This document shows positions 4,175-25,044 of a DNA stretch of 25,044 nucleotides, piece by piece. The stretch lies in the NCBI GenBank assembly GCA_002393195.1, contig DGIK01000059.1, positions 1 to 25,044 on the forward strand, written 5' to 3'. Source of the DNA: Bacteroidales bacterium UBA3824. Lineage in GTDB: Bacteria; Bacteroidota; Bacteroidia; Bacteroidales; UBA3824. A program made the position numbers and the translations under genes. The notes beneath the pieces were generated by a model. The model was not told where the DNA came from. It did no database searches and saw only the letters and a list, made by a program, of their open reading frames with translations. How positions within the stretch are numbered: position 1 is the first letter of the stretch; each line of letters opens with the position of its first letter.

Positions 4175-4205
4175 GATTGTTTGTTTGATGTTTGTTTGAT
4201 GCTTG

Positions 4206-4213
4206 CAAAATTA
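4206..4213 (-). promoter_or_regulatory. Bacteroides-type -7 box of the redox operon
   Basis: TAATTTTG on the minus strand is an exact TAnnTTTG match about 30 nt before the polyferredoxin ATG. No TTTG -33 element is seen at the right distance, so the assignment is tentative. A tandem 11-12 nt repeat of GTTTGTTTGAT lies in the short 5' leader. Confidence 0.45.
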
Positions 4214-4220
4214 TAAAAAA

Positions 4221-4252
4221 AATGGATTTGAAAACCATGTTTCAAATCCATT
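4221..4252 (-). terminator. Terminator of the TIR-lipocalin operon
   Basis: A perfect 13-bp stem (4221-4233 with 4240-4252, 6-nt loop) is followed on the minus strand by a run of eight T. It lies 24 nt after the last stop codon of the three-gene operon. Confidence 0.9.
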
Positions 4253-4275
4253 AGACTTAATAATTGTGAAAAAGT

Positions 4276-4845
4276 TTAGTTTTTGCCAAATTTCATTACC
4301 AAATCCACAAGCCTGTCGCCTGGCGATGGTATAAAGAGTGTGAGATTTTTGGATGTAATGTCTTTTACAATCATTATTTCGGCGGGTTGGTTGTCAAATA
4401 GCGTGATTATCGTGTCGCCTGTAACCCTCCATGTGCCATATTGTACGTCAACGCCCGGTACGTGTATCTGTATTTGTTTTTTGTCGTTGAAGTTGATGTT
4501 GAACGCATTAATCTGCTTCTTGCAGAGAGCTTGGTATTCTTCTTTGACTTTGTCGGGGGTGCAGTTGTCGAGGTCTGCCTTGAGCTGTTTTTCTTGTTCG
4601 AGGAGTTCCTTCTGCTTGTCGGCAGATTTGGTGGAGTCGAGCTGATGGTGCAGCAGCTCGATTGCCTTGTTGGTGGATTCCACGTCTTCTGCCGCCGTTG
4701 CTGCGCATACCGAGTCGAGTTTGGGTATTTCACATTCCTGAAGCGTCCACGAGCCCATGAGTTGTGTTTCGAGCGGGTTGGAACACGACGCCAGCATTAT
4801 CGCCGCTGCAGCAGTTGTTATTATTTTGACAATCTTCGTTTGCAT
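4276..4845 (-). CDS. Lipocalin-like lipoprotein with coiled-coil insert
   Basis: 189 residues. The signal peptide ends in MLASC, making Cys21 the lipidated residue. GSWTLQECEI (31-40) is a lipocalin-like opening strand, and YGTWRVTGDTIITL (136-149) is the matching later strand pattern. Residues 55-112 form a charged, probably coiled-coil insert with four cysteines in and near it (38, 47, 95, 108). It is the last gene of a three-gene operon, 9 nt after the TIR-like gene and followed by a strong terminator. The ligand and function are unknown; the shared fold with its two upstream neighbours suggests a joint role in the envelope. Confidence 0.7.
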   Translation of the reverse strand: MQTKIVKIITTAAAAIMLASCSNPLETQLMGSWTLQECEIPKLDSVCAATAAEDVESTNKAIELLHHQLDSTKSADKQKELLEQEKQLKADLDNCTPDKVKEEYQALCKKQINAFNINFNDKKQIQIHVPGVDVQYGTWRVTGDTIITLFDNQPAEIMIVKDITSKNLTLFIPSPGDRLVDLVMKFGKN

Positions 4846-4854
4846 GTCGCTGTC

Positions 4855-5874
4855 TTAGTTTACTTTGGTGAATATCAGTTTTGTGATTATTGAATTGTTG
4901 TCCACTTTTTCAGTTACTACGATGATGAGTTGTGTAGGCGTTATTTCCTGAATCTGCACGATGTCGTATTGATTGACATTTGCGGGTTTTAGCTTCAGGT
5001 ATTTTGACTGCGGGTCGTATTCCCAGCTGCCTTGTTCGGGCGTGTCGGTGTAGCCTGTGCGCGAGAAAGTCTTGTCGGCATTGAAGGTGAGGCTCACTCT
5101 GCTTATGAGCGATGTAATCATCTCCTGAAGTCTCAGGCTGTCTTCGTGTGTGGCGCGGAATTGGTTGTCGGAGTAGTCGGTCATTTGCCAGTGTCCCACG
5201 AGCGCGCTTTCGCTTTTCTTGAGGTCTTGGCTGAGCTCTATCTTGATGTTGGAATTGCCGAGCGAGTTTTGGTAATTAGCCTGCTGATTGAGGGCTTCGC
5301 GGTTTTCCTGCTTGGTGCCGCCGCTTACGAGTATGAACAATATCACCGCAATCACCGCAAGGCTCACGAAGAATAGGTTTCTGTATAGTTTTTCTTTTTC
5401 GGAAGGTTGCTGCGCCTTATTGTCGGCTTTTTGGGACGAAGGCTTGGTCTGCGCGGTCTTTTTTTTGCCGTATTCGTCTTTTTTCTTTGTGGCAGGTTTC
5501 GACAGCTCTTTGTAGTTGCGCTTGAATAGGTCGCTGATGTCGGTGAGGGCTGTATTGAACGGCTGCGACGCCCCGTCTATCCACACGTGTTCGTCGAGGA
5601 AGAAGTTGGTGAGGAGGTTTTGGGGGAGGTTTTCAGCCACGAAAGGCACTACGGTGATGCATCTCTGCTCGCATTGGCGCAGGATGTCAGCCATTTCGGG
5701 GTCGTTGATGGAGTCGTTGGTAATTACGGCTATTACAGCTTCGGGTGTTTCGCCGTTTTCGTCTATCCATATTGCGCCCAACGTGCTTTTGAAACCTGCT
5801 TTGCGGAGAGTTTCGTAGATTTTGTTGGCGGCGTCTTTGCCGTCGTGTGAATATGTGATGAGTATCCGTTCCAA
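4855..5874 (-). CDS. TIR-like domain / transmembrane / lipocalin-like protein
   Basis: 339 residues. Residues 1-120 look like a bacterial TIR domain: box-1 RILITYSHDGKDAANKIYETL, a VIAVITNDS strand, an ITVVPF strand and the closing VWIDGASQPF region. In the alignment I can make by hand, the catalytic Glu expected in NADase TIRs falls near Ile64/Asp63, so catalysis is doubtful. A Lys/Gln/Pro-rich linker (125-162) leads to one membrane helix (167-184). The remainder is extracytoplasmic, with a lipocalin-like domain starting at LVGHWQMTDYS (225) and including QGSWEY (281-286). The layout implies a cytosolic TIR module linked across the inner membrane to a periplasmic beta-barrel sensor. It sits between two lipocalin-like lipoprotein genes with gaps of 11 and 9 nt. 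Confidence 0.7.
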   Translation of the reverse strand: MERILITYSHDGKDAANKIYETLRKAGFKSTLGAIWIDENGETPEAVIAVITNDSINDPEMADILRQCEQRCITVVPFVAENLPQNLLTNFFLDEHVWIDGASQPFNTALTDISDLFKRNYKELSKPATKKKDEYGKKKTAQTKPSSQKADNKAQQPSEKEKLYRNLFFVSLAVIAVILFILVSGGTKQENREALNQQANYQNSLGNSNIKIELSQDLKKSESALVGHWQMTDYSDNQFRATHEDSLRLQEMITSLISRVSLTFNADKTFSRTGYTDTPEQGSWEYDPQSKYLKLKPANVNQYDIVQIQEITPTQLIIVVTEKVDNNSIITKLIFTKVN

Positions 5875-5885
5875 TTTTTTGTTAT

Positions 5886-6320
5886 TTATTTTTTTGTGTA
5901 GGTGATTACCGTTTGTGATTGAGTGGCTTTGTCAGGCACAATGTATGTGAATCCGCTGGCGGTCAGCTCGCTGAGTTTCATATTGACGGTTGATTTGTCT
6001 TCCTTGACGAGCTTGAGCACCATCGATTCGCCGTCCTCGCCTTCTTCGCCGATTACTTCCCAGATACCTTTGGTGGTAACGCCGCTGATTGTTTCCTGCA
6101 TGGAGCCGTCGGCATTGAGGATGAGTACCGTGGATTTTTTGAGGTCTTCCATGGCTTGTTGCCAAATTTCTGTTTCAGAGGCGGGCATCTTGCGGTCGGT
6201 GGAGATTGACGATATTTTGAATTCGCCGGTGAGCATCTCCCGGGGTGTCTGATTGCACGAGATGAGCGACGTCATCGCCAGTATCAATGCCATTACTATA
6301 AGTGTTGTTTTAATTTTCAT
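5886..6320 (-). CDS. Lipocalin-like lipoprotein, first gene of the TIR operon
   Basis: 144 residues when started at the ATG at 6320. This Met is chosen because it begins a clean lipoprotein signal, MKIKTTLIVMALILAMTSLI followed by SC, whereas an in-frame start 42 nt upstream adds a Thr/Lys tail and sits at the promoter. MLTGEFKISSIS after the Cys resembles the first lipocalin strand, and TKGIWEVIGEEGE and LILNADGSM are the typical middle strands of lipocalin-like DUF families of Bacteroidota. Only 11 nt separate it from the TIR-like gene. No function is known. Confidence 0.75.
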   Translation of the reverse strand: MKIKTTLIVMALILAMTSLISCNQTPREMLTGEFKISSISTDRKMPASETEIWQQAMEDLKKSTVLILNADGSMQETISGVTTKGIWEVIGEEGEDGESMVLKLVKEDKSTVNMKLSELTASGFTYIVPDKATQSQTVITYTKK

Positions 6321-6350
6321 GGTCGTTTTTTTTGTTGTTGTAATATAGCG

Positions 6351-6358
6351 CAAATTTA
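6351..6358 (-). promoter_or_regulatory. Bacteroides-type -7 box of the TIR-lipocalin operon
   Basis: TAAATTTG on the minus strand matches TAnnTTTG exactly, about 30 nt before the ATG at 6320. It supports the downstream start choice for the first lipoprotein gene. No clear -33 TTTG is present. Confidence 0.5.
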
Positions 6359-6411
6359 GCAAAAAATCGTGATTGTAATTATGTTTGGTGAAAAAAATTT
6401 CGTTTTTGCGG

Positions 6412-8112
6412 TCATTTGGTGCTGTCGTCGGTGATGATCGACTTAGACAACGTGGCTGTTATCGACGACAATATAGACGTGATGCTTGCGAGCGTGTCTA
6501 TCAGTTGTGTGTGTACTTCGTGGGTGGCTGCCACGGATTCCTGGTCGTTCCAGAGTCGCTTGATGTGCGACATACGGAGCGATTCGGTGTTGTGCCGCGT
6601 GAGTTCTATCGCCTGAGCCACCGACGCTATTTGTTTGGCGTCGTGTTTTTCTATTGCGGTGAAGAGTTCGCGGAAGTGTTTGTTGAGAGCCCAGATAAAC
6701 ACTCTGATTTCCGATACGCCTTCGGTGGAGAAGGTCATGTCGAGCCGGCACAGCTTGTCGTACAACGGCACGAGCCTGCCCATTATGTTTTCTACGATTC
6801 GTTCCAATTGTTCGAGCACCGACATTATGCCGTATATCTGTTTGGAGGTGGATTGTTGTATGTCTTTGCGCCCCACGATGAAGAGGTATTTGCTCACTTC
6901 CTCCTGTACGTACTTGAATGTCTGCTGCTTGTCCACGAGCCTTTTGAGTGTCTTCTGGTTGAGCCGCTTGGCGTCGATGTTGTCGGGGTTGTAATCTTCG
7001 AAGACGCTGGTAGCCTTGTCGAATATCCTCGAACACAGTTTGATGAGCATTGCGGTTTCCGATATTGACGATTCTATTGCGGTCTGCGGTACGGAGATGA
7101 CGTTGAGGTCGATGTATTTGAGGTAGCCCGATGTTTTCACCTTGTCTTTGGAGGTGTTTTTGGTGGGCGTCACCCATTTTTCGATTAATTTTACAAATAC
7201 GTTGCAGAATGGCAGCAGCACGAATGCCTCGCCGATATTGAAGATGAGGTGTATGTTGGCTATTCTGCGCTCTGGCGAACAGCCTACCGCGTTGCACACC
7301 CATTCGATGAATGTTACCATCAATGGCATCAGCAGCATGAATATTGCCGCGCCGGCGCATTTGGTGAGCACGTGCGCCATCATTGTGCGTTTGCTCTGCG
7401 TGGTGCCGCCCACGGACGCAATGACGATGAGCAGGCATGTGCCGAGCGTGGAGCCGATTACAAGCGGGTATGCTTGCGAGATGTCGATGAGTCCTTCCTT
7501 GGCAAACACCATCAAAATGCCTGCAAACATACCTGTACTCTGCATTATGCATGTGCCGATGGTGCCTACGAGCAGTCCGAGTAGGGGATTGTCGGCGGAG
7601 GCTATCGCGTTGGTAAATTCGGGTATGTCTTTGAGTATGGACACCGACTTGCCGAGAAATTGCATTCCAAAAAATACGAGACCAAATCCAAAGATGGCGT
7701 TTCCTGTGTCGCGGAGACCGTCTTTCTTGCTCGATTTCATAAAGAAGCCCGCTATGACCGGCACGATGGCGTATCCTGCGACGTCGAAGGCTATAATCTG
7801 GCTTGTAACTGATGAGCCGATGCACGCTCCAAGTATTACTGGCACGGTCTCGGCAAATTTCATTATGTTGGCTTCCACGAAGCTCATAAGCATCACGGTA
7901 GTGGCGCCCGTCGATTGCGTGATTACCGTTACGAGTATTCCAGTGAACATCATCTTGAAGTTGCTGGAATTGAATTTGGTAATCAGCACCCTGATATAGT
8001 CGCCGAGGCCGCTCTTGAGCGCGTTGCTCATGAGCTCCATGCCGTATAGGAAGAATACGAGTCCGCCTAAGATGCCTGTAATGAGCGAAAACCACTCGAT
8101 AGAAGTTCCCAT
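6412..8112 (-). CDS. Na/Pi cotransporter family protein with PhoU-like tail
   Basis: 566 residues, the usual length for this family. Residues 1-310 contain about eight hydrophobic segments arranged as two inverted halves, each with the family's QS(S/T) signature: TVITQSTGATTVML (Gln66) and TCIMQSTGMFAGIL (Gln191). Residues 330-560 are a long helical PhoU-like region. Family members of this kind import phosphate or related anions with sodium, and the PhoU-like tail is thought to regulate transport. The gene lies 33 nt after a PAS-receiver protein gene and may be co-transcribed with it. A 91-nt gap with a promoter separates it from the TIR operon. Confidence 0.85.
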   Translation of the reverse strand: MGTSIEWFSLITGILGGLVFFLYGMELMSNALKSGLGDYIRVLITKFNSSNFKMMFTGILVTVITQSTGATTVMLMSFVEANIMKFAETVPVILGACIGSSVTSQIIAFDVAGYAIVPVIAGFFMKSSKKDGLRDTGNAIFGFGLVFFGMQFLGKSVSILKDIPEFTNAIASADNPLLGLLVGTIGTCIMQSTGMFAGILMVFAKEGLIDISQAYPLVIGSTLGTCLLIVIASVGGTTQSKRTMMAHVLTKCAGAAIFMLLMPLMVTFIEWVCNAVGCSPERRIANIHLIFNIGEAFVLLPFCNVFVKLIEKWVTPTKNTSKDKVKTSGYLKYIDLNVISVPQTAIESSISETAMLIKLCSRIFDKATSVFEDYNPDNIDAKRLNQKTLKRLVDKQQTFKYVQEEVSKYLFIVGRKDIQQSTSKQIYGIMSVLEQLERIVENIMGRLVPLYDKLCRLDMTFSTEGVSEIRVFIWALNKHFRELFTAIEKHDAKQIASVAQAIELTRHNTESLRMSHIKRLWNDQESVAATHEVHTQLIDTLASITSILSSITATLSKSIITDDSTK

Positions 8113-13085: not shown

Positions 13086-14660
13086 TTACATATCCTCAGT
13101 GATTTTTTTGAGTTGGTAATTCTTGTCGTCGGTATATTCCGCATCGCCAAAAAAGTACTTGAAGGGCGACATAAACCACATTATACGGTCGTAGCGTCCG
13201 GGTGTTACCTTTCCAAACTGTTTTTTGGGGTCGGTGGCGTCCATCAAAATTAAGCGTTCCTCGTATGGCAGACAGGCGAGCACGGTGTTGAATTGTGCTG
13301 TGTTGGCGTATGCCGTGTCTATCTCGCCGAAGTCGGAGGTGCAGGTCATTGCCGAGATTCCGCTTACGCCGACGCGCCTCATCAGAGCCACGAGCGTCAT
13401 GTTGATTTCCGCGCTGTTGCCACGTTTGGATTGTATGATGTTTTCGATAGAGCGGGTGGTATGGTTGTCGAAGGTGGAATCCCAGGTGATATTGTTGATT
13501 ACGTAGTTGTAAACCTTTTCGGCGGCGGCGAGAGTGTCGAGCGGTTCGTCGGGGTCGGTGAGCGGCTTGAGCTCGTCGGGCAATGTTATGGACTTGACCA
13601 TCGCTTTCCAGAATTGAGGGTTTTTCCTCTGTTGCTTGAATAGACGGCTCCAGCTGTTGGAGGCTACGAGGACGTAGCCGGGGTTGTATGGCTTGTGCCA
13701 GGCTTCGGATTGCGATAGTTCGCGGTTGTCGGGGTCGGCGTATGAATATAAAAGGTGAGTAAGTTGCTGCCATGCCGTGTAATATATGCCTGAGTAGCCG
13801 ATGTTTTGTGTGAATTTGGCGGCGCGCATCCTTACAGCCGCAGTGCCGTAGAGCTGGCTTACTTGATGGTCTTCGTACATGTCGGTAGGCATTGTGCGGG
13901 CTACCGAGAATGTGTCGATACGTCCCATAAACTTATATACTATCGACGCCCTGCGCATTGGCCCCGTCATGTAGTACATAGAATTTGGATTGTCTTGCGG
14001 CGTGAAGTGGTATATCATGCTTATGAACTCGTCGCCGCTGCCGTGCTTGATGTCGTCGGCAAATGCGCCCTTGCAGTCGTACTTGTATTGCATAAATTCT
14101 GGAAAATTCGTAATGAGCCTTGACGCGGCGCACGGGTATTTGCAGTTGGATTTCCAGATGGGCGGCAGAATGAAGTCGAATGTTATAAGCGTGTATTCAA
14201 AGTCAATGATGTCGCCGGCATGTATTTCGGGCAGCGATACTGTCATCCGGCTCTCCATAGAATCCCGGTCGTAATACTTGAAATTTTTGTATTTCAACTT
14301 TTTGTGATTGATTTGGGAGCCGTGCTGGCTAAAGATCCAACATCTTGCCATGTGGACATATTCGTAATTGAAACGTCCTGAATATTTTACAGTGAAAATG
14401 TCGTCGTCCTTGAACCCGTCTTTCAATGCTTTAATGCGGATGTGGAATACGTTGTAGAGACGCAATTGTTCGTTGTAAATATCAAAGTACATCCTTTTTT
14501 CGTTTTGGAGAACAACTGCGTCATATCCGAGGTCGTCAAGGTAAGTGTGCTGGAAGTCGCTTTCTGACACTTTGCCAAATTCTCGGAACTCGGGGTCGGA
14601 TTTTTGCGCCGATGATGTCAGAGATAATAATATTACAATTAACAATAGTGTTATCCTCAT
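13086..14660 (-). CDS. Secreted DUF3857 protein with degenerate transglutaminase-like domain
   Basis: 524 residues with a signal peptide at 1-18. Residues 40-250 match the DUF3857 pattern, a beta-rich domain typical of Bacteroidota secreted proteins (YFDIYNEQLRLYNVFHIRIK, then PEIHAGDIIDFEY). Residues 375-480 correspond to the transglutaminase/protease-like core that normally follows DUF3857. The catalytic Cys position in KRGNSAEINMTLVAL is Ser415, and the His expected in FNHV-type motifs is Thr459 (FNTV), while Asp474 in LMDATDP is kept. The domain is therefore probably non-catalytic, used for binding or scaffolding. The gene lies 11 nt after the DUF4159 gene, so the two are probably an operon acting outside the cytoplasm. 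Confidence 0.75.
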   Translation of the reverse strand: MRITLLLIVILLSLTSSAQKSDPEFREFGKVSESDFQHTYLDDLGYDAVVLQNEKRMYFDIYNEQLRLYNVFHIRIKALKDGFKDDDIFTVKYSGRFNYEYVHMARCWIFSQHGSQINHKKLKYKNFKYYDRDSMESRMTVSLPEIHAGDIIDFEYTLITFDFILPPIWKSNCKYPCAASRLITNFPEFMQYKYDCKGAFADDIKHGSGDEFISMIYHFTPQDNPNSMYYMTGPMRRASIVYKFMGRIDTFSVARTMPTDMYEDHQVSQLYGTAAVRMRAAKFTQNIGYSGIYYTAWQQLTHLLYSYADPDNRELSQSEAWHKPYNPGYVLVASNSWSRLFKQQRKNPQFWKAMVKSITLPDELKPLTDPDEPLDTLAAAEKVYNYVINNITWDSTFDNHTTRSIENIIQSKRGNSAEINMTLVALMRRVGVSGISAMTCTSDFGEIDTAYANTAQFNTVLACLPYEERLILMDATDPKKQFGKVTPGRYDRIMWFMSPFKYFFGDAEYTDDKNYQLKKITEDM

Positions 14661-14671
14661 AAAACTTATAA

Positions 14672-16872: not shown

Positions 16873-16992
16873 CTTTTTTGGAAAAAAAGTTTTTGATGTG
16901 GTGGAAATTGGCAAAAATGTCCTTTTGTCTATGCCCGAAAGTGCTGCAAATTACTTTTTTGGAAAAAATTGAGGTGTATTAGTGAATATATT

Positions 16993-18903
16993 TTATTGCA
17001 AATCGAGAACTAAACGAAAACCATAGCTATTTCTTCGTATTCCCCCTAAATCAAAATATCGAGATGTAACACGAGCATATTTCGCATTTTCATTCCAACT
17101 GCCTCCGCGCAAAACACGGTTTTCTCCTGAAACATATTGAGAAGTATATGTACCATAGATGTCTTCACACCATTCCCATACATTTCCTGACATATCATAA
17201 ATGCCTAATGCATTACAATTTTTGGATTTTACATATTTTACACCAAGACCTAGTTTGTATGCGTTTTTATCATAAACTGCAACGTCATCAATGCTATCAC
17301 TGCCACTGAATTTTGCATTTGAATTTATGATGCCACCTTTTGCTGCATACTCCCATTCAGCTTCTGTTGGCAAGCGAAATTTTAATCCTGTTTTTTGATT
17401 CAGTTTGGAAATGAATCGGTTGCAGCCATGCCATGATACATCAATTTTGGGTAACATGGATTGGGGCGTTCCATCATCCATGATTGTGCTCCACAAACGC
17501 TGTGTTACTTCTGTTTCTCCGATGTAATAACTTTTTAATTCAACCAAATGAACAGGTTGTTCATCGTTGGATGCATCTGCATCATAATTCTTTTCATTAG
17601 GATTTGTGTTTTGTGCACCCATCCAAAAACGTCCTCCTTCAACTACAACCATTTTAAAACTATAACCATTGACTGTTATTAGTTTATATGTGAAATTTTC
17701 TGTATTTATCGTTGGTATATTTATTTCATTTTGGTTAAGTTCATATTCTGTCAATTTCAAATTCTGTTCAGTATTTGAACGAACAGCGCGAACTAATAAT
17801 CCGTAGTAACATGGGTAAGATGTAGGCATGTCGTAACTATACGCCAAAGCATTATTCGGTTTTTGAGTGCATAGAGAAGATGACCAGTATTTGCCATTTA
17901 AATTAGGCGCTAACAGTGAAGTTTTTTCACGCAATCCTCCATAAGGAAAGAAAATGAATTTGTCTGGATTGATTTTACTTCGTGCGATTCTGCCTGCATG
18001 ACCTGAACCTTCATAATTATCAGTCCATTCCCAATTGCAATTGTTATCCAATTCATACCATTCTGCTGATGTTGGCATTCGCCAGTCATTTCCCATGTTA
18101 ATGGTTGCTGCATCATCCTTCGGAGCTAAAATAGTAATCTCATTGTTTGAATACTTTTTAATAACTGTATCACTTCTTTGAAAAAATTTATATGATTTCC
18201 ATGTATAATTTTTTTTGGCTTTTGTTTCGCCCCATGCAAAATAATCACCATATTCCCATGGATTATTCGCTCCAACATTACATGTCGCCCAAAGTGTGCC
18301 TGAAGGAAGTCCGAGGTCAACGTATTCATATATAATTGTTGATTTATTAACAGAATCTATTTCAACAATTTCGTTTTCAGGTTCTTCGCGTTGAATATGA
18401 GGATTTTCCACTATATCATATTCCTGTCTGTCTTTTATAAAATCCGCAATAATACCGACTTTGTTCTCGTCAATAGAGCATATAAGATTTCCATCGAATC
18501 CGTATTTAGTTCTTAGTGTATCGCCACGGAAAAGCATTTTTGTGGATACAATAGGAAGATCATCCCCTTCAATTTCCTTAATTTCCAATATTTTAACCTT
18601 TAAACATTGATTACAAGCCTTGTTTTCATTTTGCAAAGTATTGAAATATGTAGCAAATGTTATTTCAGAAATTTTAAAATTGTTCTCTATTGCAATTCTT
18701 TTTGCAATTTTATCTTCAAAGTTGCAATATTTTGTCAATTTCATTTGTATTGAATCTCGATATTTGGCATCGTTTGTAGAGAAATACATATTAGTCAGAC
18801 GAATGTATTCCTTCACGACATCGATATGTTGCGTCTGTCCGTATGCGCTTGCCGCAAACAGAAGAAACATCAACAACAATATAAAGTGCTTTTTTGTCAT
18901 CAT
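16993..18903 (-). CDS. Secreted FISUMP plus SUMF1/FGE-like domain protein
   Basis: 636 residues with a signal peptide at 1-22. Residues 25-180 are a diverged copy of the N-terminal module found in the three preceding genes. Residues 194-376 are a FISUMP-type domain (EYVDLGLPSGTLWATCNVGA opening, then WRMPTSAEW, KYWSSS, LLVRAVR). Residues 405-636 are a SUMF1/FGE-type C-lectin-fold domain (GRFWMGA, ETEVTQ, RLPTEAEWEYAAKGG, GNVWEWCED, RVLRGGSW, GFRLV). The two adjacent cysteines of true formylglycine-generating enzymes are absent, so a sulfatase-maturation role is unlikely and ligand binding more so. The start overlaps the upstream stop as ATGA; Met2 (18900) is an equal alternative. It is the last gene of the cluster. 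Confidence 0.8.
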   Translation of the reverse strand: MMTKKHFILLLMFLLFAASAYGQTQHIDVVKEYIRLTNMYFSTNDAKYRDSIQMKLTKYCNFEDKIAKRIAIENNFKISEITFATYFNTLQNENKACNQCLKVKILEIKEIEGDDLPIVSTKMLFRGDTLRTKYGFDGNLICSIDENKVGIIADFIKDRQEYDIVENPHIQREEPENEIVEIDSVNKSTIIYEYVDLGLPSGTLWATCNVGANNPWEYGDYFAWGETKAKKNYTWKSYKFFQRSDTVIKKYSNNEITILAPKDDAATINMGNDWRMPTSAEWYELDNNCNWEWTDNYEGSGHAGRIARSKINPDKFIFFPYGGLREKTSLLAPNLNGKYWSSSLCTQKPNNALAYSYDMPTSYPCYYGLLVRAVRSNTEQNLKLTEYELNQNEINIPTINTENFTYKLITVNGYSFKMVVVEGGRFWMGAQNTNPNEKNYDADASNDEQPVHLVELKSYYIGETEVTQRLWSTIMDDGTPQSMLPKIDVSWHGCNRFISKLNQKTGLKFRLPTEAEWEYAAKGGIINSNAKFSGSDSIDDVAVYDKNAYKLGLGVKYVKSKNCNALGIYDMSGNVWEWCEDIYGTYTSQYVSGENRVLRGGSWNENAKYARVTSRYFDLGGIRRNSYGFRLVLDLQ

Positions 18904-20330
18904 TTTAGTTTAATAGCGGTGAATATTCCGAAATATCTACACATATAAATACGCAATGGTATGTTGAGTAGTTCTCTTACAAAATGTTGTCTATGCCAAT
19001 TGTTAATTATGCTCGTAGCGCGCTCCGCAAATTCACCCTCACATCCAGAATTTGGATGAAAAGAACATGATTGCGTGAATCCTGTTTCTTCAGCTTCTTT
19101 GAAATACTTTAATGCTGTTTCTTTGTCTTTTTGTTTGTAATAACAAATTCCCAAAAGACATTTGGCATCGGCAATGCAGCATGGTAATATTGTTGTTTCT
19201 GATTGACAAACTTTTTGAAACAAGCTCATGGCACGTTCTATATATCCATTGTTATAGTCTATAACCCCGAGTTTTATCATTGCGTCTTCATTTCCATACG
19301 ATGCCGCTTTTTCCAAAAGATTGACAACTACATTATGTGTGATGCCTATTTCTCGCAATTTTTCCGTATCTTCCTCGCTTAATTTGAATTTTTTTGCTTC
19401 TTTCCCATACGGTGGAATCTTGTAATAATAACAAATAGCCAATCCCAAATAAGCGAAACTAATTAAATAGTCATTATCAATTTCTTTGTGATAATAAGCA
19501 TTCCTTTGAGGATACTTGTGATAGTTTTCTATTGCTTTGAAAAAGGAAAGTTCAGGATTAACATATCGTGAGTTGTATAATTGATAAAAACCAAATTTCA
19601 ACGCAGCCAAAACACTGCCGCCTTTCCAAATAGCTTTTCGATAGTATTCTGACGCAAGGCTGTCATTGTGGTTTTGCCCAACATGGTTCCCGTATATCAC
19701 TTTGATAGCATATTTGTCTCCCTCAGTAATAGTCATTTCTGTTTCTTTTTCAGATAATTCAGGCAAGGTGATTGCATTTGAGATGTCCTCATTATCAGAT
19801 GCTTGTACAACAATTTTTTGCTCCGATTCAGTTCTTTTTACAGGTACAGACTCATTACTATTTTTCTTGCGTATTTTTGTTATTTCTCGTTCATTAGATA
19901 CAATTCCGGTAATTTTGTTGTCAACAATCCAAAAATCAGAGGCTGTTGTCAAAGATATTCCGCCAGAATACGCCAATACAGCAGTAATGATTGTTCCTTC
20001 ATTATCGGAATTGTTTTTTAGTTTGCCAACAATTTCAACTTTGATATGTTTTTTGCTTCCTTCATCATATAATATCCTCATATATTCATCAGGAATACAA
20101 TTACTTTTTCGTTCATAATATTTTTCTACAATTTCGTCTTTCATTCCGCAACCGTCTCCTGCCGTTTGAAACGATGCCAAAACTTTTTTCTGTTTATCTG
20201 TATTGTCGGGCGACCTCTGCCACTCGTTTAACAAGTTGACATAGTTTTCCACCACCTGTTCAGGCGATGTCTGCGCGTATAATGGGAGAGAGCAAATAAT
20301 TAATAATTTGAGTATCAATATTTTATTCAT
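18900..20330 (-). CDS. Secreted Sel1/TPR-like repeat protein with shared N-terminal module
   Basis: 476 residues with a signal peptide at 1-19. Residues 21-153 are the cluster's N-terminal module (QVVENYVNLLNEWQRSPDN, DGCGMKDEIV, SDFWIVDNKITGIVSN). In place of FISUMP, the C-terminal part (about 220-440) is helical with Sel1/TPR-like units, for example ASEYYRKAIWKGGSVLAALK, NLLEKAASYGNEDAMIKLG and CLLGICYYKQKDKETALKYF. Such repeats bind other proteins. Several cysteines cluster at 374-430. It begins 5 nt after the preceding gene and overlaps the next start, so translation is coupled. The N-terminal module may be an NTF2-like fold; I am not certain of this. Confidence 0.75.
   Translation of the reverse strand: MNKILILKLLIICSLPLYAQTSPEQVVENYVNLLNEWQRSPDNTDKQKKVLASFQTAGDGCGMKDEIVEKYYERKSNCIPDEYMRILYDEGSKKHIKVEIVGKLKNNSDNEGTIITAVLAYSGGISLTTASDFWIVDNKITGIVSNEREITKIRKKNSNESVPVKRTESEQKIVVQASDNEDISNAITLPELSEKETEMTITEGDKYAIKVIYGNHVGQNHNDSLASEYYRKAIWKGGSVLAALKFGFYQLYNSRYVNPELSFFKAIENYHKYPQRNAYYHKEIDNDYLISFAYLGLAICYYYKIPPYGKEAKKFKLSEEDTEKLREIGITHNVVVNLLEKAASYGNEDAMIKLGVIDYNNGYIERAMSLFQKVCQSETTILPCCIADAKCLLGICYYKQKDKETALKYFKEAEETGFTQSCSFHPNSGCEGEFAERATSIINNWHRQHFVRELLNIPLRIYMCRYFGIFTAIKLK
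20020..20160. repeat. 141-bp tract nearly identical to 21411-21551
   Basis: By eye this stretch differs from 21411-21551 at a single base, while flanking codons of the two paralogues are clearly less similar. It codes for the same part of the N-terminal module in two adjacent genes, as expected after recent gene conversion. Confidence 0.8.
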
Positions 20331-20335
20331 TTTTA

Positions 20336-21730
20336 TTATTTCCCTTTTAGAATTATTTTGTCAAAATTATATGTGATTTTTTCTGTTTTATAGCCCGGAC
20401 ATGAAACGACTATCACTGGCGATGCCTGTATACTTAATTCAAATTTACCATCTAAATCAGTAACTGTTCCATTTTTAGTTCCTTTTTCAACTATATAAAC
20501 GCCAGCTAATGGATTGTTAAATTTATCATAAATATAACCACGAATTCTTTTATTATCGTTGAGCACATTACCAAAATCCGCACTTCTATTTTGCCAAACG
20601 GCACGAATTAGCATTCCATAGTCTCGATAATAAGATGTTACTTCCCAAAAATTACAAGCAAACGCATAAAAATTTTTATCGAGAGTAGATGTCCAGTAAT
20701 AACCCACTAATTGGTTATCAGTCTCCTCGCCTGCTTTCAACCCACCACATGGGAAAAAAACAGATTGTTCAGGGTCCTTTTTACTGCTTGCAATCCTTCC
20801 TGCAATTCCAGAGTGTTTGTAATTATCAGTCCATTCCCAGTTGCAATTATTATACAATTCCAACCATTCTTCTTGTGTTGGCATACGCCAGTATGCACCC
20901 ATATTGGCAGTCGCAGCATCGTCTATTCGCTCTAAGATGGAAATGTTGTCGATAAATCCATGCCCAAACGAATAGTTGTCGCAATATTTTGTAAGGTAGT
21001 AATATTTTTTTGCGAAAAATTTGTATGAACTCCGCGTATAATTTTTTTTCGGTTTCGTTTCCCCCCACGCGAAATAATCGCCATATTCCCACGGATTATT
21101 AGCCCCAACATTACAAGTAGCCCATAGAGTGCCTGATGGAAGTCCGAGGTCAACGTATTTATATATAGTTGTTGATTGATTAACAGAATTTATTGCAACA
21201 ATTTCGTTTTTAGGCTCTTCGTGTTGAATAGGAGGATTGCTATATATAACTTTGTCAATATTCAATTTTGTTATCTCCCTTTCGTTAGATACAATTCCTG
21301 TTATTTTATTCCCCGAAATCCAAAAATCGGATACGGTTGTAAATGATATTCCGCCTGAATATCTAAGAACAGCAGTAATGATGGTGCCATATTTATCTGA
21401 ATTGTCGGTAAGTTTGCCAACAATTTCAACTTTGATATGTTTTTTGCTTCCTTCATCATATAATATCCTCATATATTCATCAGGAATACAATTACTTTTC
21501 CGTTCATAATATTTTTCTACAATTTCGTCTTTCATTCCGCAACCGTCTCCTTCCGTTTGAAACATTGCCAAAACCTTTTTTCTTTTTTCTGTATTGTCGG
21601 GCGACCTCTGCCACTCGTTTAACAAGTTGACATAGTTTTCCACCACCTGTTTAGGCGTAGTTTGCGCTTTCATGGATAAAGTGCAAATGGTTAGTAATAT
21701 GAATGATAATGCTTTTTCCATTTCCACCAT
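20336..21730 (-). CDS. Secreted FISUMP protein with C-terminal carboxypeptidase-regulatory-like domain
   Basis: 464 residues; signal peptide 1-23 counted from the Met at 21730 (Met4 at 21721 is an equal candidate). Residues 26-156 are the shared N-terminal module, 158-190 a linker almost identical to that of the FISUMP/SUMF1 gene, and 191-378 a FISUMP domain (VDLGLPSGTLWATCNVG, WRMPTQEEW, YYWTST, MLIRAV). Residues 395-464 are a carboxypeptidase-regulatory-like beta-sandwich (IRGYIYDKFNNPLAGVYI, GTKNGTVTDLDGKF, PGYKTEKI), the module usually found at the N-terminus of SusC-type transporters. The gene overlaps the previous one by 40 nt. No enzymatic motif is present; carbohydrate or surface binding is a guess. 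Confidence 0.8.
   Translation of the reverse strand: MVEMEKALSFILLTICTLSMKAQTTPKQVVENYVNLLNEWQRSPDNTEKRKKVLAMFQTEGDGCGMKDEIVEKYYERKSNCIPDEYMRILYDEGSKKHIKVEIVGKLTDNSDKYGTIITAVLRYSGGISFTTVSDFWISGNKITGIVSNEREITKLNIDKVIYSNPPIQHEEPKNEIVAINSVNQSTTIYKYVDLGLPSGTLWATCNVGANNPWEYGDYFAWGETKPKKNYTRSSYKFFAKKYYYLTKYCDNYSFGHGFIDNISILERIDDAATANMGAYWRMPTQEEWLELYNNCNWEWTDNYKHSGIAGRIASSKKDPEQSVFFPCGGLKAGEETDNQLVGYYWTSTLDKNFYAFACNFWEVTSYYRDYGMLIRAVWQNRSADFGNVLNDNKRIRGYIYDKFNNPLAGVYIVEKGTKNGTVTDLDGKFELSIQASPVIVVSCPGYKTEKITYNFDKIILKGK
21081..21158. repeat. 78-bp tract nearly identical to 22439-22516
   Basis: It codes for the invariant opening of the FISUMP domain. The two copies differ by one base; a third, more diverged copy lies at about 18246-18324 in the FISUMP/SUMF1 gene. 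Confidence 0.8.
21411..21551. repeat. Second copy of the 141-bp N-terminal-module tract
   Basis: Partner of 20020-20160, in the same orientation and about 1.39 kb away. It could mediate deletion or duplication of the intervening gene by homologous recombination. Confidence 0.8.
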
Positions 21731-23103
21731 TTTTTTATTAAAATTATTGGTTCGTAATTATATGTTACTTCTTGTGTTTTATAATCAGGATGTGAAATGA
21801 CAAGTATATGCGATGAATTTGTAAAAATTTCAAATCTACCATCAAAACCGGTCATTGTTCCATTTTTAGTTCCTTTTTCAACTATAACTACACCAGGTAA
21901 AGGATGTCTTTTTTTATCATAAATGCATCCTCTTATTGCCTCTTTTAAAAAGGTTTTGCCTCTTCTAACCATCACTGCTCTAACTGCTTGACCTAAATAT
22001 CGATAGTTGCCTCCTATGTTTTGTTTCGTGGAATCGAAGTTTAAGGACCATGCTTTATTCGGGTTATCAGTATTAAGCGAGGACGACCAATAATTGCCAA
22101 ACCTATTGTATCGTTCAGCAGGAAGAAATATTGTATTGTCATTTCTACCAGTGATAGAATAACCACTTTTGCCATTATGTTTTGTCCATTTCCATATACA
22201 TTCATTTTCCAGTTCTAGCCATTGAGTTCTCGTGGGCATGCACCAATCGCTATTCCATTGGGAATAACCCACATCATCGGATTGTTCGAGGATTGTCAAA
22301 CTATCAGAAAAGACATTGTTACCAAAAATCGACATATTACAATACTTTTTAAGAGAGTAAAGGTCTCCATTGGCAAATTTGTAATTAGCCCACGAATACT
22401 CTGTTTTCGGTTTCGTTTCCCCCCATGCAAAATAATCTCCATATTCCCACGGATTATTAGCCCCAACATTACAAGTAGCCCAAAGAGTGCCTGATGGAAG
22501 TCCGAGGTCAACGTATGAATGATTTGACGAATTGGTTGGTTTGTTGTCTGTTTTAGTTGAAACAATTTCTTTTTCAGGATCTTTGGGTTGAATATTATCA
22601 ACGCGTTTTGTGATATTTCCGCCTTTTTTGCGTATCTTGGTTATTTCCAGTTCATTGGAAACTATCCCTGAAATCTTACCACCAACAATCCAAAAGTCAG
22701 AGACCGTTGTTAATGATATTCCGCCTGAATATGACAAAACAGCGGTAACTATTGTTATGTCATCATCGGAATTCTTTTTGAGATTCCCAACAATTTCCAC
22801 TTTGATGTGGTTTCGATGTCCTTCATCGTAAAAAATAGTTAGATACTCATTGGGCAAACAATGCTTTGTGCCAGTATTGTAGTTTTGTACAATCTCGTCT
22901 TTCATTCCGCAGCCGTCTCCTTCTGTTTGCAACGATGCCAAAACTTTTTTCCTTTTTTCCGTATTGTCGGGCGACCTCTGCCACTCGTTTAACAAGTTGA
23001 CATAATTTTCCACCACCTGTTCAGGCGTAGTTTGCGCTTTAACAACAAACGTTAAAATGCATAAAACAAGCGTTAGCAAATATTTATTTTTGATTATATA
23101 CAT
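21691..23103 (-). CDS. Secreted FISUMP protein with carboxypeptidase-regulatory-like domain, sister gene
   Basis: 470 residues with a signal peptide at 1-24. The domain order is that of the next gene: N-terminal module (27-158), acidic linker, FISUMP domain (197-379, with VDLGLPSGTLWATCNVG, CMPTRTQWLELE, NYWSSS, GQAVRAV), then a carboxypeptidase-regulatory-like domain (388-455, GTKNGTMTGFDGRF, HPDYKTQEV). FISUMP bodies of the two sisters differ much more than their openings. The C-terminus after IIL runs into a Lys/Trp/Tyr-rich tail (KKWWKWKKHYHSYY) that exists only because the frame continues 40 nt into the next gene, past a run of seven A. It overlaps the upstream gene by 20 nt. Confidence 0.8.
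   Translation of the reverse strand: MYIIKNKYLLTLVLCILTFVVKAQTTPEQVVENYVNLLNEWQRSPDNTEKRKKVLASLQTEGDGCGMKDEIVQNYNTGTKHCLPNEYLTIFYDEGHRNHIKVEIVGNLKKNSDDDITIVTAVLSYSGGISLTTVSDFWIVGGKISGIVSNELEITKIRKKGGNITKRVDNIQPKDPEKEIVSTKTDNKPTNSSNHSYVDLGLPSGTLWATCNVGANNPWEYGDYFAWGETKPKTEYSWANYKFANGDLYSLKKYCNMSIFGNNVFSDSLTILEQSDDVGYSQWNSDWCMPTRTQWLELENECIWKWTKHNGKSGYSITGRNDNTIFLPAERYNRFGNYWSSSLNTDNPNKAWSLNFDSTKQNIGGNYRYLGQAVRAVMVRRGKTFLKEAIRGCIYDKKRHPLPGVVIVEKGTKNGTMTGFDGRFEIFTNSSHILVISHPDYKTQEVTYNYEPIILIKKWWKWKKHYHSYY
21730..21736 (-). other. A7 slippery heptamer at a gene overlap
   Basis: On the minus strand the upstream frame reads ATA AAA AAA TGG, so the A AAA AAA heptamer is in the phase used for -1 frameshifting. 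A -1 slip would enter the frame of the downstream gene exactly at its ATG. No downstream stimulatory structure is evident. Confidence 0.4.
22439..22516. repeat. Second copy of the 78-bp FISUMP-opening tract
   Basis: Partner of 21081-21158, in the same orientation, about 1.36 kb apart. Recombination between these copies would swap C-terminal parts between neighbouring genes. Confidence 0.8.
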
Positions 23104-23908
23104 TGTCTAAAAACTTTTTCTTGTCATTATCATTCATTCTTGCAAAAGACGTTATGAGCCAGCCAGCATTCTTTGTTTGACGGTCAAAGTCTTGGATTGT
23201 AAACGTCCATCCAGGCACTTGCAAAAACATAAACTGCAAATCTCTAACATATTCTATATCAAGCATACCATTATATACATACGTATAAAAAACCGCCGTT
23301 TCGTCCAATTCATATTGTTTTTGCGCATAGTTCAAAATCCAGTCGTCTTTTTGCGTGGTTATGTTGTTGAGTTCCATAAAATTGGTTTCGTGATCCAGCG
23401 GCGTTATCAAAAGTTCTTTGCTTGTAAAAGAGGGTTTTAGTTTAAAAACTTCACCTTGCGCCTTGGCAATAACCCACTTGTATGAAAGCGTATCGTATTT
23501 TTCGACGTTAAGAAACAATACGAAATCTACATCTTTCCCTTTCAATTGACCATGACAGGGTGCGATGGCGAGCCAAGTGGTATCTGCATAATTGAGTTTA
23601 GTATTTGATTCCAAAACATCGTTTGCAAAACTTTGAGCGGTTTTGTATAACGAGTCATTCACGTCTTTTGTGCCGAACAATAGACCGTCAAAAAGCGCGA
23701 GAATATTTTGAAGTTTGTAGTTGGCTTTTGTTGTGTCGATGGTATGCAGGATTTCCTTGCAATTAAATCTGCGCATAAAACCTTCTACCAGTTTTACACG
23801 TGATTTAAATAGTTCTTTTTCAAGTTCTGAATTGACAACCACCTGTGCGTTACACCAAATATTGCACATCATTATTGCCAATAAAGAGAAAAATAACTTT
23901 TTTGTCAT
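23084..23908 (-). CDS. Secreted protein of unknown function
   Basis: 274 residues with a signal peptide at 1-22 (cleavage near CNAQ). I recognise no family. The mature part starts with a helical segment (ELEKELFKSRVKLVEGFMRR). A mixed alpha/beta body follows, with strands such as DFVLFLNVEKYD, KWVIAKAQGEVFKL and FMFLQVPGWTFTIQDF, and one CHG near residue 118. There is no lipobox or membrane anchor beyond the signal. It follows the gene at 23968 after 59 nt and overlaps the first FISUMP gene by 20 nt, so it belongs to the same cluster and likely acts with those secreted proteins. Confidence 0.65.
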   Translation of the reverse strand: MTKKLFFSLLAIMMCNIWCNAQVVVNSELEKELFKSRVKLVEGFMRRFNCKEILHTIDTTKANYKLQNILALFDGLLFGTKDVNDSLYKTAQSFANDVLESNTKLNYADTTWLAIAPCHGQLKGKDVDFVLFLNVEKYDTLSYKWVIAKAQGEVFKLKPSFTSKELLITPLDHETNFMELNNITTQKDDWILNYAQKQYELDETAVFYTYVYNGMLDIEYVRDLQFMFLQVPGWTFTIQDFDRQTKNAGWLITSFARMNDNDKKKFLDNVYNQK

Positions 23909-23967
23909 ATTTCTTTTTTTTATATTAAGGCATTTGGCAATGTTAATTGTTAAAGCCTGATAAATAG

Positions 23968-24681
23968 TTATCTTCTTTGGGTTTCTTTTACAGAAATATC
24001 GCCAAGTCTCGGCACAATCTCATCGCCCCACGGAGATATTATTGGAACAAAGAAAACTTTAATCTGTTTTTTCGTCCAATCGGCGTATGATCTGAAATCA
24101 GGTCGTCTACCTATAAAATCCTGATAATAGGTAACAACGCATTCGTATTTGTCGCCTACGCGCTGTATGTTCGTAACGTCCATACTTTCAATGTCGCAAC
24201 TTGTAATTGTCAGTTCCGCGTAGTAAGGCGGATTGCCATATATCAAGTTGATTAGTCGAGTGAAATAGTCTTTTACAGGTTGGCGTTTGGTTGTGGTTCG
24301 GCCTTGATTAATTACGCTCGTTTCCATTTGCACCGGTTTCCCGACTGTACCATCAGGCAGAATAATGGGTTCTCCATCATTCAAAAACAGTTGCAGTGCT
24401 GCAAGGCGGCGATCTTCTCGGTCTTGTCGTGTAGGATGCATTTCCCCATCTTCGTCTCTTTCGGCCTTTTTTGTCATAGATGTAATGTATGAGTTCATTT
24501 GCTTAACACACTCCTTAGCACGCTGTTTTAGTAATTGTTGATCGGCCTCGTTTTGCAAATCAGGTAAACGAAGTATTCCAAGGACAATGTCATCGCCAAT
24601 GTCATCACCATTTTGTGCGGTCGATACATGCGGAAATCCGAAGATGCAAACCGCAATCAGAATAAACAAAAATTTGTTCAT
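23968..24681 (-). CDS. Secreted protein of unknown function, charged
   Basis: 237 residues with a signal peptide at 1-23 (STAQ). Residues 45-100 are highly charged and helical (KQRAKECVKQMNSYITSMTK, then EDGEMHPTRQDREDRR). Residues 145-235 look beta-rich (YYAELTITSCDIESMDV, YECVVTYYQDFIG, KQIKVFFVP). No known domain is recognised. A strong GGAGG site lies 6-7 nt before the ATG, inside the end of the upstream gene, and the upstream stop is only 2 nt away, so the two are translationally coupled. Such an SD is unusual in Bacteroidota and supports this start. Confidence 0.7.
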   Translation of the reverse strand: MNKFLFILIAVCIFGFPHVSTAQNGDDIGDDIVLGILRLPDLQNEADQQLLKQRAKECVKQMNSYITSMTKKAERDEDGEMHPTRQDREDRRLAALQLFLNDGEPIILPDGTVGKPVQMETSVINQGRTTTKRQPVKDYFTRLINLIYGNPPYYAELTITSCDIESMDVTNIQRVGDKYECVVTYYQDFIGRRPDFRSYADWTKKQIKVFFVPIISPWGDEIVPRLGDISVKETQRR

Positions 24682-24683
24682 AA

Positions 24684-25044
24684 CTACCTCCTTCCTTTAT
24701 AATATTCTCTTACATGAAGTTCCCTTATTTTTCCATTGTCAACATGAGTTGTAATTGGTACAACTTGCTGCAATTCGTCGCTTGTCCTGATACGCAGCAT
24801 GTAGGTGCTTATTGATACCCTGTCCAACTGTGTCATGCCGTCTTCTCCGAGAATCCTGACGATGCAATTTGCATCGAAGAATTGGTTTCTGTTTGGCATG
24901 TCTTTTTTATTGCAGACAATTATTTTCAATAAATACTCAATATCGTCCATGTTGTCAATGTCAACAAAGGACGGAATCTCAGGACAATTACGGCGTTGTG
25001 CCCGTGGAATGCTGTCTTGGTATTGTGCATTAGCCTGAAATGCA
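24684..25044 (-). CDS. Secreted protein, C-terminal part (5' end beyond window)
   Basis: The frame is open from the window edge to the stop at 24684, giving 119 residues; the Met at 24950 is internal and not the start. The first visible residues, AFQANAQYQDSIPRAQ, look like the end of a signal peptide with an A-x-A site, so the true start is probably only a few codons outside. The rest is short alpha/beta sequence (DDIEYLLKIIVCNKKD, CIVRILGEDG, VSISTYMLRIRTSDE, KIRELHVREYY) with three cysteines. I recognise no family. It is the first visible gene of the secreted-protein cluster. Confidence 0.65.
   Translation of the reverse strand, partial: AFQANAQYQDSIPRAQRRNCPEIPSFVDIDNMDDIEYLLKIIVCNKKDMPNRNQFFDANCIVRILGEDGMTQLDRVSISTYMLRIRTSDELQQVVPITTHVDNGKIRELHVREYYKGRR

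Follow-up and report, generated by a model that had tools for sequence, protein, structure and literature searches.

Gene content and layout of the window cluster

The stretch of DNA analysed here (the window) is the whole of contig C125, 25,044 nucleotides in length, of Bacteroidales bacterium UBA3824, the assembly of which consists of 232 contigs and is 96.7% complete and 6.4% contaminated. Positions 16993-25043 are filled by seven open reading frames (ORFs) in succession on the minus strand, g1 to g7, which represent the 3' portion of an operon family centred on g5. The products of g1-g4 combine an N-terminal module (the head) with a C-terminal module (the tail). Neighbouring ORFs overlap in three pairs (by 4, 40 and 20 bases) and are separated by 5, 59 and 2 bases in the remaining ones, and export signals, as judged by eye, are present in g1-g6 and in g7 as read on contig C231. 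An earlier note on this DNA, made from the sequence alone, had described seven exported minus-strand genes that overlap or nearly touch; this layout holds, but g5-g7 are not head-and-tail proteins and form the conserved core. That account was also incomplete in having missed the g5/g6 core, the caspase protein found at the g7 position in relatives and the spread across the class. The features of the cluster are as follows.

16993-18903, minus strand: g1, with signal peptide, diverged head, FISUMP-like domain and a tail resembling formylglycine-generating enzyme (FGE)
17008-17655, minus strand: FGE-like (C-type-lectin-type) tail of g1, residues 417-632; nearest PDB sequence TvpA
18298-18387, minus strand: linker of g1 from head to FISUMP-like domain, residues 173-202; apparent tract of recent exchange
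18409-18837, minus strand: diverged head of g1, residues 23-165
18900-20330, minus strand: g2, with signal peptide, head and a helical tail like tetratricopeptide repeats (TPR) or Sel1
19851-20276, minus strand: predicted NTF2-like head of g2, residues 19-160
20336-21730, minus strand: g3, with signal peptide, head, FISUMP-like domain and CarboxypepD_reg-like tail
20363-20545, minus strand: CarboxypepD_reg-like tail of g3, residues 396-456; PF13715 at 5.1e-13
21251-21667, minus strand: predicted NTF2-like head of g3, residues 22-160; the sequence used for modelling
21691-23103, minus strand: g4, with signal peptide, head, FISUMP-like domain and CarboxypepD_reg-like tail
21757-21936, minus strand: CarboxypepD_reg-like tail of g4, residues 390-449; PF13715 at 3e-11
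22618-23037, minus strand: predicted NTF2-like head of g4, residues 23-162
23084-23908, minus strand: g5, conserved core protein with the invariant motifs RFN, HE..F and N.GWLI
23968-24681, minus strand: g6, conserved core protein with a profile relation to class-wide heads
24684-25043, minus strand: g7, last 119 residues, cut by the contig end; NTF2-like (by eye) C-terminal part of the caspase protein of relatives
16895-25044, minus strand: window part of an insertion relative to congener G002, which runs on into C231 to about position 1545

A conserved core defines an operon family

Relatives keep a constant gene order around g5. First comes either a small gene, in many cases lipoprotein-like, or the gene for a membrane protein; in some loci a caspase protein gene follows; then come g6, g5 and a gene for an exported protein. 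The window, in which g6, g5 and g4 follow one another in the same order, belongs to this g5/g6 operon family. g5 was present in 37 of 147 relatives, including 8 of the 18 genomes of the genus, and in 21 of 295 genomes drawn class-wide (own genome counted, eight candidates scored per genome), three of these being weak partial matches with E-values of 1e-6 to 1e-8. With a single-sequence query, g6 was found in 14 of the 147 relatives. Given that neither g5 nor g6 brought any Pfam or NCBIfam model over its cut-off, yet g5 occurs in so many genomes, a common envelope operon seems to be without description.

To define the family, 68 loci were selected through g5, and hence do not form a random sample; L105 was left out as a copy of L084. 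A gene matching the g6 profile lies upstream of g5 in 60 of them. The gene after g5 encodes leucine-rich repeats (LRR) in 38 loci, a head with WG repeats in 6, a head with a barrel-like tail in 3 and other heads in 6; of the rest, one resembles the LRR heads and carries another tail, one lies on the other strand, three fall beyond the contig and ten are unassigned. Among these ten are TPR arrays (L120, L121 and L123) and an FGE tail (L143), and Pfam assigned no family to the gene after g5 in L142. Across the operon family, tail types other than LRR thus comprise WG, TPR, Sel1, FGE, PEGA and others. The barrel-like tails (L034, L055, L082, L084 and L088) were called by eye, Pfam finding no barrel family in those of L055 and L084, and the LRR tails resemble internalin LRRs, the best match being 1.9e-36 for L052. 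In L143, from another family of the order, a head with an FGE-type tail (2988-4328; 2.1e-64) stands directly after caspase, g6 and g5, representing the nearest distant parallel to g1.

Heads and tails of the exported proteins

The heads of g2, g3 and g4, about 140 residues in length, are 72-84% identical (g2/g3 119/142, g2/g4 106/142, g3/g4 102/142), meaning that the three genes do share a module, as noted earlier, but that calling the copies almost identical went too far. The head of g1 is indeed a diverged fourth form, being 22-25% identical to the others; its match to the head profile (2e-27) is not independent because it is itself one of the 22 rows of that profile. The g3 head was modelled as NTF2-like with a predicted local distance difference test (pLDDT) score of 89.1, and the predicted cone-like alpha+beta fold would place the head in the NTF2-like superfamily.

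Within its own genome, the head was found at this locus only (g3 search). Out of 5.8 billion proteins searched, seven matched the g4 head: g2 and g3 of the window, one equal to g4 over the head and four others (P0005-P0008). Head matches occurred in 3 of the 147 relatives' genomes, own genome counted, and the heads of congeners G003 and G015 comprise one with a PEGA-bearing tail, a tail-less double head and one with a Sel1 tail. In other congeners and in Prevotella-like genomes, heads that have diverged further are joined to WG-repeat tails (by Pfam in L049, L077 and L089), to tails judged barrel-like by eye or to short helical ones. The head thus occurs beyond this genome and with more than one kind of tail, and the proposed constant head with exchangeable tails is seen both in the window and across relatives. 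In profile comparisons, class-wide non-LRR heads scored 98.5% against LRR heads and 96.5% (E-value 9e-10) against g6, with controls below 1%; the C-termini of caspase proteins scored 72.8% against g6. The window heads and the class-wide heads are likely to share an origin, as judged from position and fold; sequence gives no proof of it.

The tails are those that had been claimed. g3 and g4 each have a FISUMP-like domain followed by a carboxypeptidase-regulatory-like (CPR) part, matched by Pfam CarbopepD_reg_2 (PF13715; values listed above). The g2 tail is a weak TPR match (best 1.3e-5, below the Pfam cut-off). In g1, a FISUMP-like domain precedes a tail that belongs to the FGE-sulfatase family (PF03781, 6.5e-36). 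The FISUMP-like domains of g1, g3 and g4 stay below Pfam and NCBIfam cut-offs (Lcl_C at 3.9e-4 to 2.2e-3; for g3, Fib_succ_major at 0.16 and TIGR02145 at 0.0094), and such domains recur at more than ten further places in the own genome (g3 search). On another contig of this genome (C34, L195, 1811-8091), FISUMP-like domains are found on lipoprotein-like proteins in three genes in succession.

The PDB sequence nearest to the g1 tail is TvpA (2y3c; 1.9e-23), a retroelement-diversified protein. Formylglycine-generating enzymes carry their catalytic cysteines in a GGS...R motif. In g1 the motif-matching stretch GGSWNENAKYARVTSRYF, as compared by eye, contains no cysteine, which makes a binding role likelier for the tail than an enzymatic one.

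The own genome does hold a diversity-generating retroelement, on contig C92 (L169, 5913-7785), with a reverse transcriptase at 6066-7079, a template repeat (TR) at 5913-6062 and a variable repeat (VR) at 7634-7785. The VR is the 3' end of a gene for a 992-aa protein, with 23 of 24 substitutions at TR adenines, and a FISUMP-like gene (4811-5722) adjoins the element. As a source of tail variation in the window, the C92 TR was refuted by the lack of any BLAST match there; the genome has three further RVT_1 hits.

Exchange near the head-tail junction

Tails have been exchanged between heads. The database relative P0005 carries the g1 tail at 454/459 identical residues behind another head (16/73 to g1 over residues 14-90), and its stretch between head and tail is 69/75 identical to g3. 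Within the window, the linkers of g1 and g3 are identical at 12 of 13 fourfold sites. By contrast, the start of the FISUMP-like domain just after the linker is identical at 29 of 30 residues and at only 1 of 12 fourfold sites. This difference in fourfold sites is what would be expected of a recent exchange close to where head and tail join, next to an older stretch conserved by selection.

Insertion and base composition

The block was correctly seen to be richer in A+T than the purB side: g1-g4 have a GC content of 0.35-0.36 and a GC content at third codon positions (GC3) of 0.27-0.32, against 0.48-0.53 and 0.63-0.69 in seven purB-side genes. The operon as a whole has a GC3 of 0.32, compared with 0.65 in its flanks, a difference of 0.33. 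A composition equal to the genome average, judged here as GC3 against the flanks, is thus contradicted. None of the 16 congeners examined (four ORFs upstream and two downstream of purB; G017, with a split purB, left out) has operon genes near purB. The flanks of the operon, including a Nudix-like gene (by eye) on the far side, lie only 16 bp apart in G002, making the insert about 9,454 bp in length, and 112 bp apart in G008; no target-site duplication was seen at the insertion. Compared with G008, purB is 95% identical and g5 51%; the window g5 is closest to that of G003 and G015 (55%). Taken together, the flank distance in G002, the absence of the operon from this site in all 16 congeners, the unequal identities of purB and g5 and the low GC3 support the suggested acquisition as a unit.

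In 11 caspase-type loci, GC3 differs from that of the flanks by -0.19 on average, with GC lower in 10 and L046 as the exception, whereas 30 LRR-type loci average +0.02, with GC nonetheless slightly lower in 23, and seven other loci average -0.002 (loci with flanks of less than 1000 aa left out). Because the deficit is found in caspase-type but not LRR-type loci, the operons of the caspase-type branch look like foreign DNA in their hosts and those of the LRR-type branch like native DNA.

Since congeners of known source come from red deer, sheep, goat and yak, with one more metagenome bin, the window organism is likely to be a rumen bacterium. A second AT-rich patch (GC 0.36), on the purB side at the opposite end of the contig, holds a toxin-antitoxin-like pair (386-1082; RelE-type and helix-turn-helix by eye).

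The caspase protein and the absence of its caspase domain from the window

The final 240 bases of the window overlap with the start of contig C231, agreeing at 239/240 positions, indicating that the cluster does not end at 25044. On C231, the signal peptide of g7 leads straight into the NTF2-like part, and hence g7 contains no caspase domain. The absence from the window copy of a caspase domain with a His-Cys dyad before g6 rests on this 239/240 overlap of contig ends. The part of g7 in the window matched the caspase-protein profile at 1.8e-16 and is up to 61% identical to the C-termini of database caspase proteins. Upstream of g7, C231 encodes a 382-aa membrane protein 34% identical (6e-39) to its positional counterpart in G003, and G015 has one too; a TerB/DjlA-like label for it comes from weak matches of the G003 protein alone.

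In G005, G007, G008 and G016, the gene before g6 encodes a secreted protein of the C14 family (by Pfam at 1.7e-5 for L046 of G007, by profile for the others). The caspase-protein profile matched upstream in 20 of the 68 loci, a count that takes in the window by its NTF2-like end only and L142 by a weak match (2.4e-7): 0 of 38 LRR loci compared with 20 of 30 non-LRR loci. Among 141 aligned rows, of which 120 are database hits and 21 come from loci (two of the latter, from L105, duplicate L084), the dyad Cys is kept in all 141 and the His in 139. The rows lacking His come from G003 and G015, the congeners with heads closest to those of the window.

Caspase proteins occur elsewhere in the window's own genome. 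Contig C187 encodes one caspase (6.5e-8) and another joined to a FISUMP-like domain (20.7 bits, cut-off 21.4), a fusion that links both domain kinds; together with an exported 306-aa protein they form a small locus (L192, 547-3735). On C79, a caspase protein (L194, 3777-5303; 1.4e-11) has a predicted membrane end and a large Hsp70-type ATPase-like gene nearby (by eye). Elsewhere, the caspase-type operon of Xylanibacter muris PMUR (L084, 7613-14669) has a second caspase-profile gene downstream, at 13476-14669, and large AAA-type ATPase-like genes (by eye) adjoin both caspase operons of G007 (L046, 3627-5087; L047, 5731-7197), for which a link to mobility or selfish genes is possible.

A proposed mechanism and its alternatives

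We give about an even chance to the following explanation: the window holds an acquired, rearranged copy of a Bacteroidia-wide envelope operon, a docking platform with exchangeable recognition tails, here without a protease. The copy would have been gained by horizontal transfer. The core (g5, g6 and a membrane-linked partner) would form an extracytoplasmic docking platform, probably through NTF2-like domains, and the 3' genes would code for recognition proteins, each pairing a head of this kind with an interchangeable tail for ligand binding (LRR, WG, TPR/Sel1, C-type-lectin-like FISUMP/FGE and others). The secreted caspase-like protein that the operon encodes in gut lineages, with its C-terminal NTF2-like part, would be the probable proteolytic output. 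In the window, the protease domain would have been lost and the head-and-tail genes brought to four through duplication and recombination near the head-tail junction; the copy would most likely be a multi-specific envelope binder or sensor without a protease of its own.

Several points weigh against this explanation. g5 has no recognisable fold, and we infer the location, the docking or complex formation, the ligand binding and the protease output in relatives. The head profile matched only 4 of 393 order-wide genomes (own included, ten candidates scored per genome), so that the heads either diverge fast or are rare. Sequence ties the window-type heads to the class-wide heads weakly, with scores of 0.3% against LRR heads directly, 9.1% via intermediates and 42.5% against g6. 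P0002, which equals g4 at 373/375 up to residue 375 and has a CPR part 32/39 identical to g3 and 29/39 to g4, is weak evidence of tail exchange. The protease cannot be essential because it is absent from the window and from all 38 LRR loci. Loss in the congeners, in place of gain in the window, would also account for the insertion, but less simply.

The presence of the caspase protein in relatives raises the possibility of a caspase-centred conflict system, in which the tails would detect an invader or damage to the envelope, with the secreted caspase as effector and the window copy degenerate through loss of that effector. This agrees with the caspase-protein profile upstream in 20 of 30 non-LRR loci, the dyad kept in nearly all rows, the loss of His in two congeners and of the whole domain in the window, the caspase-FISUMP fusion on C187, and the caspase-FGE (PMC3501461) and lectin-caspase (PMC8195603) systems in the accessible parts of those papers. 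However, caspase is found in none of the 38 LRR loci, the systems described there are intracellular while the present proteins look exported, ten proteins gave no PADLOC match, and head-and-tail genes have increased in number where the caspase is missing, which would be unexpected if the system were dead. We consider it unlikely, though well short of negligible. An ordinary adhesin locus, with tails that bind host or plant-fibre surfaces, paralogues from plain duplication and a core that merely aids export or assembly, would fit the internalin-like LRR tails, the recurrence of FISUMP-like domains at more than ten places in the genome and the rumen relatives. It is improbable in our view, as it leaves the conserved core with its head-related g6 and the caspase of gut lineages without explanation, and TPR and Sel1 are not typical adhesin ends.

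In a polymorphic toxin locus, a constant head would serve for delivery and the tails would be toxins; such a locus would share with the window the constant head and exchangeable C-termini, and caspase and NTF2 domains occur in polymorphic toxin loci in the accessible part of PMC3482391. By contrast, the tails here are repeat, lectin-like or CPR-type domains and are not each followed by an immunity-gene pattern, and the Pfam and NCBIfam scans found no toxin family in g1-g4 and no toxin or immunity family in g1-g6, although new toxins would escape these. A toxin locus is very improbable in our view. None of ten proteins matched PADLOC families at E-values of 0.01 or less, and this result and the scans of g1-g6 gave the label of a polymorphic adhesin or effector family no support. 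No type IX sorting domain family was among the NCBIfam matches of g1-g4 at E-values of 0.1 or less, no search aimed at it having been made. We attach as little weight as to a toxin locus to diversification of the tails in trans by a diversity-generating retroelement: the genome does have one at C92 beside a FISUMP-like gene, and TvpA is nearest to the g1 tail in the PDB, but the C92 TR has no BLAST match in the window, its VR sits in the 992-aa protein, and the tails of g1 and P0005 differ at merely 5 of 459 residues.

The docking-platform explanation can be extended to the class as a whole: an extracytoplasmic recognition platform with NTF2-like docking, many recognition domains and, in gut Bacteroidales, a secreted caspase, as a counterpart of sensor-caspase immunity whose receptors are swapped between strains by recombination. 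We regard this extension as speculative and rather unlikely. If the tails of the operon are receptors, head-tail exchange would be a testable route by which gut bacteria alter binding, and caspase-like proteolysis would, through the caspase branch, take place beyond the cytoplasm. The caspase-type operon of Xylanibacter muris strain PMUR means that genetics in a named strain may be possible.

Comparison with known systems

No description of the operon was found in the open-access literature, a scope outside which most subscription papers fall, and the same search bears out the earlier view that no system of this make-up has been described. We rate the modular recognition proteins as a known kind and their operon as undescribed in the literature found. 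Prokaryotic caspase homologues occur with TPR or FGE-sulfatase partners (PMC3501461). As far as the accessible part of that paper goes, these resemble the present family in that their operons bring a caspase domain together with TPR or FGE domains, and a helix resembling a signal peptide is frequent; they differ in that the tails here belong to separate proteins with predicted NTF2-like heads and the window lacks a caspase domain, and the core g5/g6 is unmentioned in that part. The lectin-fold (FGS, NPCBM) caspase conflict systems, in the portion of PMC8195603 that is accessible, likewise have C-type-lectin-type domains as proposed sensors, tied to caspases and retroelements; those systems are described as intracellular, whereas the present proteins look exported and use predicted NTF2-like heads.

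Retroelement-diversified proteins with Fib_succ_major, DUF1566 or FGE, in the accessible part of PMC4159848, and TvpA end in the same kinds of C-terminal domain, but unlike those retroelement targets the window has no match to the C92 TR. Polymorphic toxin systems, as the accessible part of PMC3482391 presents them, share the constant N-terminus and C-termini exchangeable by recombination, and differ from g1-g6 in that the scans of the latter gave no toxin or immunity family. Internalin-type LRR proteins, by contrast, lack a counterpart among the window tails, none of which is LRR; their likeness is to the LRR tails of the class-wide operon, from which they differ by the NTF2-like head and the g5/g6 operon that accompany those tails.

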